Source: Pseudanabaena yagii GIHE-NHR1
GTDB lineage: Bacteria > Cyanobacteriota > Cyanobacteriia > Pseudanabaenales > Pseudanabaenaceae
DNA: 64,000 bases
Assembly (NCBI RefSeq): GCF_012863495.1
Contig: NZ_JAAVJL010000004.1
Span: 174,501-238,500 of the forward strand
Reading direction: 5' to 3'
A model generated the notes under the pieces. The model was not told the DNA's origin. It ran no database searches and saw only the letters and a list, made by a program, of their open reading frames with translations. The position numbers were made by a program, and so were the translations under genes. Positions 16,231 to 20,899 of the stretch are shown here, one piece after another (position 1 is the first letter of the stretch; every line of letters starts with the position of its first letter).

Positions 16231-16506
16231 ATGACAGTTAGAGAACAACTTAGCAAAGAACTCGAACAAGCCCCCGAATCATTAGTCGAAGAAATCCTTG
16301 ATTTTTGTCTATTTCTCAAACAACGCCAACAAGCCAAAGTTATCAATCAAGCAACTGAGACAAAACCAAACGGAATTCTCGACCTATTAGAGCGTGTTAA
16401 AGAAATTCAAGCCCAAGTTCCCACCGAAGAATGGGACAAACTCCCCCATGATGGCTCAATCAACCACGATCATTATCTCTATGGTTCTCCAAAGGTTGAA
16501 GAATGA
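16231..16506 (+). CDS. Antitoxin of a VapBC-like module (DUF2281-like)
   Basis: A 91-aa acidic protein. The N-terminal part 'LSKELEQAPESLVEEILDFC' followed by 'LFLKQRQQ' is the pattern of DUF2281-type antitoxins that pair with PIN toxins. The C-terminal half is likely disordered and would bind the toxin ('VPTEEWDKLPHDGS'). Its stop overlaps the toxin start in an ATGA arrangement, so the two are translationally coupled. A purine-rich AAGAGGA site precedes the ATG. Such antitoxins usually repress their own operon. The DNA-binding part here is not obvious. Confidence 0.8.
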   Translation: MTVREQLSKELEQAPESLVEEILDFCLFLKQRQQAKVINQATETKPNGILDLLERVKEIQAQVPTEEWDKLPHDGSINHDHYLYGSPKVEE

Positions 16507-16913
16507 AAACAGTTTTTGCGGACACAGGATACTGGATCGCCCTACTCGATCCTCAAGACACACTTCACTCTAAAGCCATAAATCTAAGCATCACACTTAC
16601 TCAAGTGCAAATTTTCACCAGTGAAATGGTGCTTACAGAAATCCTGAATCATTTTTCTAAGCGTGGTAATTTCCTCAGATACGCCGCCGCAAACTTGATT
16701 GAAAGCTTACAAGAAAATCCTGCAATCACAATTATTCCTCAAACCGATAGTATTTTTCAACAAGCCCTCATTCTCTACAAACAACGCCCCGATCAAGCAT
16801 GGAGCCACACCGACTGCTCCTCATTCTGCATCATGCAACAACAGAACATCCTAGAAGCATTGGCATACGACAAACACTTTGAGCAAGCTGGGTTTATCGC
16901 TTTGCTGCGTTAG
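16503..16913 (+). CDS. PIN-domain toxin (VapC-like RNase)
   Basis: The 136-aa protein has the four acidic PIN-domain positions: Asp7 in 'FADTGYWIALLD', Glu46 in 'EMVLTEILNHF', Asp104 in 'SHTDCSSFCIM' and Asp123 in 'ALAYDKHFEQAGF'. These coordinate Mg/Mn and cut RNA in VapC enzymes. All are intact, so an active toxin is expected. It overlaps the antitoxin stop by four bases. The target RNA cannot be inferred. The module sits at the end of the AT-rich accessory patch that begins after crtW. Confidence 0.87.
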   Translation: MKTVFADTGYWIALLDPQDTLHSKAINLSITLTQVQIFTSEMVLTEILNHFSKRGNFLRYAAANLIESLQENPAITIIPQTDSIFQQALILYKQRPDQAWSHTDCSSFCIMQQQNILEALAYDKHFEQAGFIALLR

Positions 16914-16994: not shown

Positions 16995-19900
16995 CTATCC
17001 ATAACCTCCCCCCGCAGGAGTGTCAATTACAAATGTATCTCCAGACCCCATTTGCACTGTAGCAGTACTGGTTAAATCGGTAATCTTACCATCATGCCTA
17101 ATCACATAATTGCGACCAGTTGCGCCCGCTTCCCCACCATTTAAGCCAAAGGGAGGAATAACGCGACTACTCGACAAAATTGCCGCAGTCATCGGTTCTA
17201 GAAACTTGATCCGCCTCGTCACACCATTACCCCCATTATGCTTTCCCTTACCGCCACTATTTGCCCTGATGGAGAACTCTTCTAAAAGAACAGGAAATCG
17301 CCATTCCAGAATTTCGGGATCGGTGAGTCGCGAATTGGTCATGTGCGTTTGAATCGCATCAGTACCATCAAAATCAATCCCCGCACCCGATCCACCGCAA
17401 ATAGTTTCGTAATATTGATAGCGATCGCTACCAAAAGTAAAGTTATTCATCGTTCCCTGTGAGGCTGCCATCACACCAAGCGCACCATACAAAGCATTAG
17501 CGATCGCCTGAGAAGTCTCCACATTTCCCGCCACTACCGCCGCAGGATAGACAGGATTGAGCATCGATCCTTCAGGTACAATAATTTCCAAAGGTTCCAA
17601 ACATCCGCCATTGAGAGGAATATCATCATCAACGAGAGTACGGAATACATACAACACAACGGCTTTACACACAGCAAGCGGGGCATTAAAGTTATTCCCT
17701 AACTGCGCCGAAGTTCCCGTAAAGTCAATTTTTGCGGTTCTCTCAATCGGATCTAAGCTTACGGAAACAACTATTTGACTACCATTGTCAATCGGATAAA
17801 CAAACCTACGTTCATCTTTTTCCTTTGCTAAATTTGCAATCGCCTTACGAATGGCATCTTCCGCGTTGTCGCGCACAAAGCCCATATAGGCTTGGACTGT
17901 CATTGCCCCATAGTGATTAACCATGCGCTGAAGTTCCTTTGCGCCACATTCATTGGCAGCGATCTGGGCTTGTAGATCGGCAATATTTTGAGCAGGATTA
18001 CGGGCAGGATATGCACTAGAAGTTAACAAAGCGAGGGTTTCCACTTCGCAAAATTTACCACTTTTCACAAGCTGGAAATTATCAAAAAGAATTCCTTCTT
18101 CTTCGATGCTAGTACTATTTGAAGGCATGGAACCGGGGGTAATGCCACCAATATCCGCATGATGTCCACGCGAAGCAACATAAAAGATCGGCTGTTCGGA
18201 ATCAATAAATACAGGCGTAATCACCGTGATATCAGGTAAATGCGTTCCGCCGTTATAGGGATTATTGGTCGCAAATACATCACCAAAATGGATGTTGGCA
18301 GTTCCTTTTTCTTTGATTAAAGCCTTGACGCTTTCACCCATCGAGCCAAGATGGACAGGGATATGCGGCGCATTGGCAACCAATTCTCCCTCTCGATCAA
18401 AAATTGCACAGGAAAAATCCAAGCGCTCACGAATGTTTACACTCGCACTCGTATTTTGTAAGGTAAATCCCATCTGTTCGGCAATAGATTGAAAGAGATT
18501 ATTAAAGATTTCTAATTTAATCGGATCAGGAAGATATCCCCCTAAATCCCCCTTGTAAAGGGGGACTTCAATTTCTTCTCCCCCAGACATTTGATTTTGA
18601 TATTGAGGCGATCGCCGAAGTATCAAACAATCATCCTCATTTAACTCTGCTTCCCAATCAGGCTCGATCGCATTAGTCCCCGTCGCATCAATAATCAATG
18701 CTGCCCCCGCGATGCGATCACCTACCCGCAAATCCTCCCGCCGAAATACAGGAGTTTCGCTCCATGCTCCTGCCATGTAGACTTGGGCTTTTGGGCTGTT
18801 AGATTGGCTATTAGCTGTTAGCTGTTGGCTATTAGCTTTTTTCCTTCTTACTTTGTCCTTTTTCCTTGAAATGATTGTTTCCACAGCGATCGCTTCAACG
18901 ATTAGAGACTTGTCTGCAAAGATGAAGCCATAGCGATCCTTGTGCAAAGCTTCAAAATTAGTTCGCAAATAATCAAAGGTTTCTTGAGAAGAGAATTCGA
19001 GAGAATTAGGAATTATTACCGTTAGCGATGAATCTGTACCTGTGTAACGCAATCGCAAACTAGTTTCAATCTGCAAATCGCTATCCTCATTACCTTGCAA
19101 AATCTCGCTCTTGCCCTCTTCACTGAGAGTTTGCGCCATAGTTTCCAGTTCTGCAAGCAATTCTAAATTTAGCTCTGACTCCACCGAGCGATCGCGAATT
19201 GTGCGAATATCCGCTAAACCAATGCCATAGGCGGATAGTACCCCTGCATAGGGATGGATGAATACCTGCGTCATGCCTAACACATCAGCGATCGCACAGG
19301 CGTGCTGACCACCCGCACCACCAAAACAACAGAGAACATATTCGGAAACATCATAGCCTCGCTGCACCGATATTTTCTTAATAGCCATTGCCATTTTTTC
19401 GACCGCAATTTCTAGGAAACCTTGGGCGACGAATTCAGGCGTAACCGTTTGTCCTGTAGCTTGACTAATTGTTTGCGCTAATTCCCTAAACTTCTCAACT
19501 ACAACTTCGCGATCGAGCGGCAAGTTCCCATCTTTCCCAAATACCTTCGGAAAGAAATCAGGCTGTAACTTCCCTAACATCACATTGCAATCGGTTACGG
19601 CTAAATTACCGCCATTGCGATAACAGGCAGGACCGGGAAATGCGCCTGCTGATTCGGGACCTACCCGATACCTTGCGCCATCAAAAAACAGTAACGAGCC
19701 GCCACCTGCCGCCACTGTATGGATTGCCATCATCGGCGTACTCAACCTCACCCCAGCAACTTCCGTAGATAGCGATCGCTCATAACTTCCCGCATAATGC
19801 GCCACATCTGTGGAAGTTCCACCCATATCAAAGCTAATAATTTTCTCAAACCCTGCTTGGAGACAGGTCTGCACCGCCCCCACAATCCCCCCTGCGGGAC

Positions 19901-20801
19901 CTGAAAGAATACTGTTTTTCCCTTGAAAAGTTTTCGCTTCCGTCAAGCCTCCATTGGACTGCATAAACATTAATTTCGTAGTCGCAATCCCCTCTCCTGC
20001 GGGAGAGGGGTGAGGGGTGAGGGTCGCATTCTCCTCTCCCAAAATGGGAGAGGGGCTAGGGGTAAGGGTCTGATTAAGTTCTGCACTAACGCGATCGACA
20101 TAGCGCTTGAGAATTGGCGATAGATAGGCATCCACAACCGTCGTATCGCCACGACTAACAAACTTAATTAAGGAACTAATTTCATGGGATACGGAAACTT
20201 GCGTAAAGCCAATTTCTTTAGCTAATTCGGCTAATCTTTGCTCATGGTGCGGATAGCGATAACTATGCATTAAAGCGATCGCGCAAGCCCTAATTCCTAA
20301 ATCATAAGCCTTTTGTAATTCTTTAATCGCTAAGTTCTTATTTAAAGAAATCAGAACTTCCCCATGAGCGCTATAACGTTCTTCTATTTCAATTACCTGT
20401 TCATAGAGCATTTCAGGTAACACAATATGCCGAGCAAAAATATTCGGGCGATGCTGATAGCCGATGCGTAAGGCATCCCGAAAGCCCTTAGTAATTAATA
20501 AAACTGTGCGATCGCCTTTTCGTTCTAATAGAGCATTAGTCGCAACAGTAGTTCCCATTTTAATTGCCGCAATTTGCTCAATGGGAATTGCTTCATCGGT
20601 CGCAAGTCCTAAAATATCTCGAATCCCTTGAATCGGTGCATCGGTATAGCGATCGGGATTTTCCGAAAGCAATTTATGCAGCACAATCTCACCATCAGGA
20701 CGCTGGGCGACAATATCGGTAAACGTGCCACCGCGATCGATCCAAAACTGCCATTTAGAATTTGTGTTAATTTTGCTAACCTTTTCCGAATCAGAACTCA
20801 T
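16995..20801 (-). CDS. Hydantoinase/5-oxoprolinase, fused A and B subunits
   Basis: An ATP-dependent amidohydrolase of the OPLAH/HyuAB group. It is likely a 5-oxoprolinase that recycles 5-oxoproline to glutamate, but hydantoin-type substrates cannot be excluded. The 1268-aa product joins a HyuA-like half ('DRGGTFTDIV', 'GTTVATNALLERKG', 'SFDMGGTSTDVA', 'CCFGGAGGQHACAIADVLG') to a HyuB-like half ('SVNIRERLDFSCAIFD', 'FATNNPYNGGTHLPDITV', 'GGNGVTRRIKFLE'). I chose ATG 20801 over an upstream TTG. Three short segments look like dispersed DNA repeats read in frame (18536-18570, 18787-18868, 19988-20071). It is a single gene with no partner nearby. Confidence 0.9.
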   Translation of the reverse strand: MSSDSEKVSKINTNSKWQFWIDRGGTFTDIVAQRPDGEIVLHKLLSENPDRYTDAPIQGIRDILGLATDEAIPIEQIAAIKMGTTVATNALLERKGDRTVLLITKGFRDALRIGYQHRPNIFARHIVLPEMLYEQVIEIEERYSAHGEVLISLNKNLAIKELQKAYDLGIRACAIALMHSYRYPHHEQRLAELAKEIGFTQVSVSHEISSLIKFVSRGDTTVVDAYLSPILKRYVDRVSAELNQTLTPSPSPILGEENATLTPHPSPAGEGIATTKLMFMQSNGGLTEAKTFQGKNSILSGPAGGIVGAVQTCLQAGFEKIISFDMGGTSTDVAHYAGSYERSLSTEVAGVRLSTPMMAIHTVAAGGGSLLFFDGARYRVGPESAGAFPGPACYRNGGNLAVTDCNVMLGKLQPDFFPKVFGKDGNLPLDREVVVEKFRELAQTISQATGQTVTPEFVAQGFLEIAVEKMAMAIKKISVQRGYDVSEYVLCCFGGAGGQHACAIADVLGMTQVFIHPYAGVLSAYGIGLADIRTIRDRSVESELNLELLAELETMAQTLSEEGKSEILQGNEDSDLQIETSLRLRYTGTDSSLTVIIPNSLEFSSQETFDYLRTNFEALHKDRYGFIFADKSLIVEAIAVETIISRKKDKVRRKKANSQQLTANSQSNSPKAQVYMAGAWSETPVFRREDLRVGDRIAGAALIIDATGTNAIEPDWEAELNEDDCLILRRSPQYQNQMSGGEEIEVPLYKGDLGGYLPDPIKLEIFNNLFQSIAEQMGFTLQNTSASVNIRERLDFSCAIFDREGELVANAPHIPVHLGSMGESVKALIKEKGTANIHFGDVFATNNPYNGGTHLPDITVITPVFIDSEQPIFYVASRGHHADIGGITPGSMPSNSTSIEEEGILFDNFQLVKSGKFCEVETLALLTSSAYPARNPAQNIADLQAQIAANECGAKELQRMVNHYGAMTVQAYMGFVRDNAEDAIRKAIANLAKEKDERRFVYPIDNGSQIVVSVSLDPIERTAKIDFTGTSAQLGNNFNAPLAVCKAVVLYVFRTLVDDDIPLNGGCLEPLEIIVPEGSMLNPVYPAAVVAGNVETSQAIANALYGALGVMAASQGTMNNFTFGSDRYQYYETICGGSGAGIDFDGTDAIQTHMTNSRLTDPEILEWRFPVLLEEFSIRANSGGKGKHNGGNGVTRRIKFLEPMTAAILSSSRVIPPFGLNGGEAGATGRNYVIRHDGKITDLTSTATVQMGSGDTFVIDTPAGGGYG
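18536..18570. repeat. CCCCCTAAATCCCCC-type repeat inside the hydantoinase gene
   Basis: The inverted repeat CCCCCTAAATCCCCCTTG... / AAGGGGGA is read as 'VPLYKGDLGG' on the minus strand. I recall this motif as a common intergenic repeat in cyanobacteria. It lies in the start of the HyuB half. Confidence 0.7.
18787..18868. repeat. GCTATTAGCTGTTAGCTG-type heptamer repeat plus polypyrimidine tract in the hydantoinase gene
   Basis: TTAGCTG/TTGGCTA-type heptamers are read as 'ANSQQLTANSQSNSPKA', next to a TTTTTCCTTCTTACTTTG tract read as 'KKDKVRRKK'. It falls at the junction of the HyuA and HyuB halves. Confidence 0.75.
19988..20071. repeat. CCCTCTCC...GGAGAGGG repeat pair in the hydantoinase gene
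   Basis: Two related inverted repeats (CCCCTCTCCTGCGGGAGAGG and CTCCTCTCCCAAAATGGGAG) are read as 'LTPSPSPILGEENATLTPHP'. The insert is at about residues 244-271 in the HyuA half. Confidence 0.75.
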
Positions 20802-20842
20802 GGCAAATGATGTTATTGGGTAAATGTTATAGCTATAGCTAC

Positions 20843-20899
20843 GCAAAACCGAAACGATAGTTGCAGCGCTAAGCGCTGCAACTATCGTTTCGGTTTTGC
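20843..20899. repeat. Long palindrome upstream of the hydantoinase gene
   Basis: The arms of about 28 nt (GCAAAACCGAAACGATAGTT plus GCAGCGCT) are perfectly paired. It lies between divergent genes, so it is not a classical terminator. Confidence 0.75.

Follow-up and report, generated by a model that had tools for sequence, protein, structure and literature searches.

Dispersed repeats translated in frame within the linkers of a fused hydantoinase from the cyanobacterium Pseudanabaena yagii

In bacteria, short dispersed palindromes can be translated in frame inside known enzymes. A 2013 survey of repetitive extragenic palindromes (REPs) with GTAG/CGTC tags lists UvrABC, UvrD/Rep and DNA polymerase I of other bacteria among the in-frame targets, records that some genes are hit twice (uvrA, uvrB) and that repair genes are favoured, and suggests that flexible linkers or loops may explain this (PMC3733652). 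Rickettsia palindromic elements, about 150 bp long and encoding a conserved peptide, are likewise in-frame palindromic inserts in unrelated functional genes (PMC10969869; PMC3733652), and in the mitochondria of Nematomorpha inverted repeats stand in coding sequence with both arms translated (PMC6649704). Here we analyze a stretch of 64,000 nucleotides from Pseudanabaena yagii GIHE-NHR1 (contig NZ_JAAVJL010000004.1, positions 174,501 to 238,500), referred to as the window, in which the gene for a fused hydantoinase A/B contains two types of hairpin repeat and a heptamer array, distributed over three linkers that we designate S1, S2 and S3. The features concerned are the following:

16995-20846, minus strand: fused hydantoinase A/B (5-oxoprolinase/N-methylhydantoinase type), 1283 aa; from Pfam matches to Hydant_A_N, Hydantoinase_A, Hydant_A_C and Hydantoinase_B and from solved structures
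19977-20075, minus strand: linker S1 (aa 258-290), two CCCTCTCC-type hairpins at 19989-20010 and about 20033-20053; from sequence, genome-wide matches and predicted coil
18783-18860, minus strand: linker S2 (aa 663-688), GGAAAAA / GCYAAYA heptamer array of the short tandemly repeated repetitive (STRR) type; from sequence, genome-wide matches and predicted coil
18534-18617, minus strand: linker S3 (aa 744-771) at the A/B junction, hairpin CCCCC-TTGTAAA-GGGGG plus CCCCCTAAATCCCCC (18538-18564); from sequence, genome-wide copies and predicted coil
18599-18624, no strand assigned: highly iterated palindrome 1 (HIP1, GCGATCGC), flanked by arms that form a broken palindrome in the window gene; from palindrome comparison with relatives

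In all likelihood, we are dealing in all three cases with dispersed non-coding repeats that either landed in a flexible linker of a constrained enzyme or expanded there, and the peptide they encode is filler. The repeats have matches across the genome, stand in frame, fall into predicted coil and lie in linkers that are freer than the enzyme body, and relatives carry other repeats or none at the same places. As with intragenic REPs, the hairpin repeats are dispersed short palindromes that also occur inside genes; in contrast to what is described for REPs (PMC3733652), two hairpin types and a heptamer array meet in one gene, different repeats occupy the same linkers in several genera, and some palindromes are locus-specific and not dispersed. 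Inspection by eye, without a formal scan, revealed no GTAG/CGTC tag at the stem ends: the CCCTCTCC stem is followed by CTAGGGG, and that of the second hairpin type, C5, by ATTTAGGGGG. The initial annotation of the window had drawn a parallel to the Rickettsia elements, which is apt for the kind of event and fails for the product: instead of one frame and one conserved peptide, the CCCTCTCC and C5 copies are short units used in several frames and both orientations, as readings of genome copies such as ALTPSPSPAGEGN, PSPSGRGVGGEG and PPLLRERGLGGEG make clear (PMC10969869; PMC3733652). The arms of the Nematomorpha palindromes encode conserved residues (PMC6649704), whereas here the arms lie in free linkers.

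The hydantoinase is a clear, multiple case of an already known phenomenon; the locus-specific palindromes are the unexpected part. The top matches of literature searches on in-frame repeats, cyanobacterial repeats and Rickettsia elements, in a collection with few subscription papers, included nothing on this enzyme or on identical linkers being used repeatedly. A paper from 2008 reportedly deals with very small mobile repeats in cyanobacteria. S2 consists of tandem 7-nt units that are scattered through the genome, as are the STRR heptamer repeats of cyanobacteria, and here such units are translated.

Three kinds of repeat in one enzyme gene

A reading of the open reading frame (ORF) placed all three repeats in frame in their respective linkers, and the claim of the initial annotation that one enzyme contains three repeat kinds in frame is borne out by place, frame and genome-wide matches. 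The search of the genome for the same repeats, which it had proposed as a check, was productive in each case. An exact search of the 5.57-Mb genome with CCCCCTAAATCCCCC, the C5 repeat, found 23 copies, including that at 18538-18552; because this pattern is mirror-symmetric, a reversed control carries no information. The CCCTCTCC type, searched as CCCCTAACCCCTCTCC with at most two mismatches, gave 46 matches versus 4 in the reversed control, two of which fall into S1 (20002-20017 and 20047-20062), and the heptamer pattern GCYAAYAGCYAAYAGC gave 47 versus 0, including three overlapping matches at 18807-18836. Intergenic copies of both hairpin families have the spacer GGGGAACAAGAAAATAA in common, and for this reason the CCCTCTCC and C5 hairpins may be subtypes of a single element.

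In our census of repeat copies, the hydantoinase gene is the only one holding all three kinds, and a gene for an nSTAND-WD40 protein (L142/L174) holds two. Under independent insertion, about 2e-5 genes would be expected to hold all three (analytic value for 13, 4 and 2 target genes), and a simulation of the coincidence scored 2 hits in 20,001 trials (1e-4), both figures resting on simulated gene lengths. Independent chance is therefore unlikely; the simple reason for the coincidence is tolerance of the hydantoinase linkers.

One chain holds Hydant_A_N, Hydantoinase_A and Hydant_A_C together with Hydantoinase_B and is thus an A-B fusion, for which N-methylhydantoinase (7hk5/9h03) is the nearest solved structure by sequence and fold. 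Translation probably starts at the ATG at 20801 (MSSDSEKVSK), which fits the end given in the initial annotation, while the listed ORF begins at an upstream TTG; counted in this way, the frame is open over 1283 codons. The gene is present in 29 of the 38 genomes of the family, and its coding stretch is a multiple of three in 62/62 aligned rows. An assembly error is ruled out, as the same inserts are present in G030 and G022. Stop codons were found in seven of the 62 rows, in five of them near the N terminus (L021, L032, L087, L101 and L119). In the other two, the cyanobacteria L037 and L040, the stop lies at S3 and separates A and B into two genes, as might be expected if S3 were a former intergenic spacer whose repeats had already been there before a gene fusion created the A-B junction. 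We regard this origin as rather unlikely: the junction is open in the remaining 28/30 cyanobacterial rows outside the family and in the 20 non-cyanobacterial rows used, so that the split appears derived, and a former spacer could not account for S1 or S2.

Flexibility of the linkers and selection on the enzyme

In an AlphaFold2 model of residues 28-1227 (mean predicted local distance difference test score, pLDDT, 78.4), S1 and S3 contain long coil with pLDDT <50 (model residues 235-259 and 726-742). S2 is predicted as coil but less clearly, with a pLDDT of 51 in its core block, 69 and 71 in the neighbouring ones, and a short terminal helix. Among the 62 aligned rows, both the length and the sequence of the three segments vary, and their flanks are conserved. 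Together with the predicted coil, this variation corroborates the tolerant loops that had been postulated initially, and residues conserved across cyanobacteria were not seen at these segments in the homologue alignment.

The three segments had all been termed inserts. This is appropriate for S1 and S3, whose 33 and 28 residues compare with medians of 3 and 14 in the 20 non-cyanobacterial rows, but the length of S2, 26 residues versus medians of 22.5 in these rows and 22 in 26 other cyanobacteria, scarcely marks it as an insertion. Judged by the medians of the homologues, S1 and S3 are therefore true insertions and S2 is mostly a replacement of linker sequence. S1 ranges from 3 to 74 aa in the 26 other cyanobacterial rows, and S3, measured between fixed anchors, from 63 to 675 nt across the family. 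In close relatives, S3 contains seven (G012), two (G017) or three (G026) units of the PLYKGDLGG type, and S2 of G026 exceeds that of G017 by 21 nt, which equals three heptamers.

The ratio of nonsynonymous to synonymous substitution rates (dN/dS) was 0.05-0.09 for the body and 0.32-0.95 for the linkers in eight comparisons against the window gene. Five further pairs gave 0.08-0.12 for the body in four of five cases and 0.45-0.65 for the linkers; the G014/G013 pair, with a body value of 0.59, is too close to count. Purifying selection on the enzyme body is strong and the linkers are much freer, and for this reason the segments are to be seen as tolerated filler and not as signs of a decaying gene. 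The relaxed selection suggested by the initial annotation thus applies to the linkers and not to the body. Three repeat-derived segments in one gene do have the look of relaxed selection, and one might take them as marks of a pseudogene; this idea, to which we attach next to no probability, is ruled out by the body dN/dS against eight relatives, and it is also at odds with the long open frame. It is very improbable, too, that the peptides were recruited for a protein function such as binding or localization. Peptides of the PLYKGDLGG type are indeed recurrent at S3 in much of the genus, but the linker dN/dS values speak against recruitment, as do sequences that are unrelated between genera and the fact that L038 reads the same repeat in another frame at S3.

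Repeat copies in other genes of the genome

In this genome, in-frame repeats recur well beyond the hydantoinase. The census covered the stretches around the other repeat copies and used a codon score to judge whether a copy lies in a gene, which was the case at 12/43 places for CCCTCTCC, 3/21 for C5 and 1/21 for the heptamer. The assertion that all three are usually intergenic consequently holds for the heptamer and mostly for C5, but has to be qualified for CCCTCTCC. Set aside from the CCCTCTCC census were L165 and L180, which are chance 16-mer matches without the repeat peptide, as well as L179, L181 and the first place in L193, where the coding score is below zero on one side or both; L146 and L150 were set aside from the C5 set on the latter ground.

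Repeats of the CCCTCTCC type are present in PolA, UvrA, Mfd, RecJ, a UvrD-like helicase and CobN-like and CobB-like proteins, and further carriers are NFACT, NIR/SIR, an N6 methylase, a DUF559 protein and the nSTAND-WD40 protein. A strict hairpin pattern is passed by eight of these 12 genes; L160 (CobB-like), L162 (RecJ), L174 (nSTAND-WD40) and L178 (UvrA) fail it and still read as the repeat peptide. Of the three genes with C5, L133 scores only weakly as coding (0.01, 0.04) and L152 is without a Pfam match. The CCCTCTCC copies stand between Pfam domains in PolA, UvrA, RecJ, NIR/SIR, the CobB-like protein and Mfd. Comparison with solved structures identified the UvrA segment as a clear insertion, opposite a gap in solved UvrA, and placed the RecJ and Mfd segments in non-aligning stretches; in the UvrD-like protein, the segment immediately precedes the GDPNQ motif inside the helicase match. 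The PolA insert is old, because 19 of the 26 genomes of the genus carry its peptide.

DNA repair and replication account for five of the 13 CCCTCTCC-carrying genes (L153, UvrD-like; L157, PolA; L158, Mfd; L162, RecJ; L178, UvrA). Repair genes make up some 4% of the coding length at a guess, which would give about 1e-4 for such a share. The five repair genes among the 13 in-frame targets bear on a remark left open in the 2013 survey (PMC3733652).

The same linkers in relatives and locus-specific palindromes

In other cyanobacteria, the same linkers contain other repeats. S1 of L017, L018 and L034 (Microcoleus, Tychonema and Richelia) carries a repeat GTAGGGGCGGTGCCCCCGTG, beginning with GTAGGGGCG, that has 37, 26 and 81 copies in the respective genomes; S2 of L019 and L018 carries GGCACRGGCATCTTGCCTGT, with 19 and 6 copies; and S3 of the distant cyanobacterium L038 carries the C5 repeat in another frame, its 14-mer being present in 116 genome copies. 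By eye, heptamer arrays of different sequence were recognized at S1 or S3 in L010, L019, L029 and L033, and repeat-like filling was recognized in a fourth loop near aa 880 (about window position 18200) in L020, L022, L024, L027, L029 and L087; this loop is short in the window gene and has about six GC-rich units in L022. This conserved enzyme has three linkers, and probably one more loop, that act as sinks for the repeats of whichever cyanobacterial lineage it belongs to, which makes it a natural series on where proteins tolerate insertion. On the tree, the CCCTCTCC insert at S1 needs three changes, for which one gain and two losses fit, with the basal forks open; a single gain is not established.

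We infer that repeats insert widely and that selection purges those copies which strike folded regions or disrupt the frame, leaving linkers as sinks. Arrays would lengthen or shorten in multiples of three, and an existing palindrome might be repaired or rewritten by template switching during replication.

S1 of five of the 15 Pseudanabaena rows without the CCCTCTCC repeat contains an unrelated near-perfect hairpin (G020, G016, G029, G031 and G010; P 0.0025 each, the lowest value attainable with 400 shuffles). Three of the 11 rows with the repeat reach P <0.05, and one of three family rows outside the genus has a significant S1 hairpin (G001, P 0.025). At S3, a palindrome centred on HIP1 is perfect over 30-32 nt in G030, G022, G014, G013 and G009, with arms that match each other and belong to three sets (G014 and G013 are nearly identical genes), and at this site (18599-18624) the window gene has one arm from each of two sets.

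Several results weigh against dispersed, passively tolerated filler as a full account. The S1 arms of G010, G031 and G020 are not dispersed, their sole exact genome matches being their own two arms, and it is thus ruled out that these hairpins are copies of a dispersed repeat (the searches covered these three; the G029 arm was left out, and G016 was searched only with the G020 arm). Inexact hits numbered 5 for G010 with one mismatch (1 in the reversed control), 2 for G031 with two mismatches (control 0) and 25 for G020 with two mismatches (control 11), and are counted as background and not as a family because genomes without the hairpin in question also have some. An exact search with the S3 palindrome of L029 likewise found only its own two arms. 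Furthermore, nine of 13 non-independent pairs have a lower dS in the linkers than in the body, which plain drift does not predict and which fits either template switching or exchange with other repeat copies. Not all copies avoid domains, since CCCTCTCC lies inside a Pfam match in the CobN-like protein, the UvrD-like helicase and NFACT, as does the heptamer copy in a peptidase S15. Finally, third positions in the PolA hairpin stem are kept better than in all but 4 of 772 windows; plain drift does not predict this outcome either, which comes from a biased set of 18 rows chosen for keeping the hairpin.

Hairpins could be kept for a benefit of mRNA or DNA structure at domain boundaries, which might, for instance, slow the ribosome between domains. 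In line with this, 90-nt windows at S1 and S3, but not at S2, have more structure than is found elsewhere in the gene (55 genes; overlapping, non-independent windows), with mean structure percentiles of 0.28 (S1) and 0.15 (S3) in Pseudanabaena versus 0.43 and 0.38 in other cyanobacteria. Moreover, four of the 15 pairs in the S1 hairpins of G029 and G031 have both sides changed and pairing kept, a compensatory pattern that fits useful structure (P 4.5e-5 given the differences per arm, under a simple null and for a pair picked after seeing the sequences). On the other hand, a significant S1 hairpin is missing from 10/15 rows without CCCTCTCC and from 8/11 rows with it, and a hairpin required in all relatives is ruled out, many having none; in addition, template switching also yields compensatory changes (PMC8794818). 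We therefore consider useful structure improbable as the reason for the hairpins. Between the sisters G020 and G016, a single pair is compensatory, two outer pairs are lost, one mismatch is restored and another is new, which is no covariation excess (P 0.16), and covariation between these two is accordingly dismissed as a signal.

Hairpins are known to be created and mended by template switching (PMC8794818), which yields perfect stems in a single step and re-establishes pairing, in RNA genes and yeast coding sequence (PMC8794818; PMC8604942), and is proposed here for cyanobacterial protein linkers. Our data suggest that the S1 palindromes were made and repaired locally in this manner, selection on the hairpin being the weaker rival. 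More generally, it is possible, and we put this forward tentatively, that the linkers are written by DNA palindromes which arise locally or arrive as repeats and in which one arm is rewritten from the other by template switching, so that unrelated sequences stay hairpins and new residues come through changes of several bases at once. Visible states of this process would be the S1 hairpins of G020/G016, G029/G031 and G010 together with the S3 palindrome around HIP1. The locus-specific palindromes offer a protein-coding case in which compensatory pairs may stem from the mechanics of mutation and not from selection on RNA, which matters for anyone taking covariation as proof of structure.

A further perfect palindrome, 57 nt long, is located at 20843-20899, directly upstream of the hydantoinase start. 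Its 16-nt arm has no other occurrence within the window, and its core was found in 2/241 loci, namely at its own place in the window and in G022. On the other side, the enzyme gene is adjoined at 16231-16913 by a 91-aa ORF slightly below the Pfam cut-off for DUF2281 and a PIN-domain ORF, a small gene pair that looks like a toxin-antitoxin pair.

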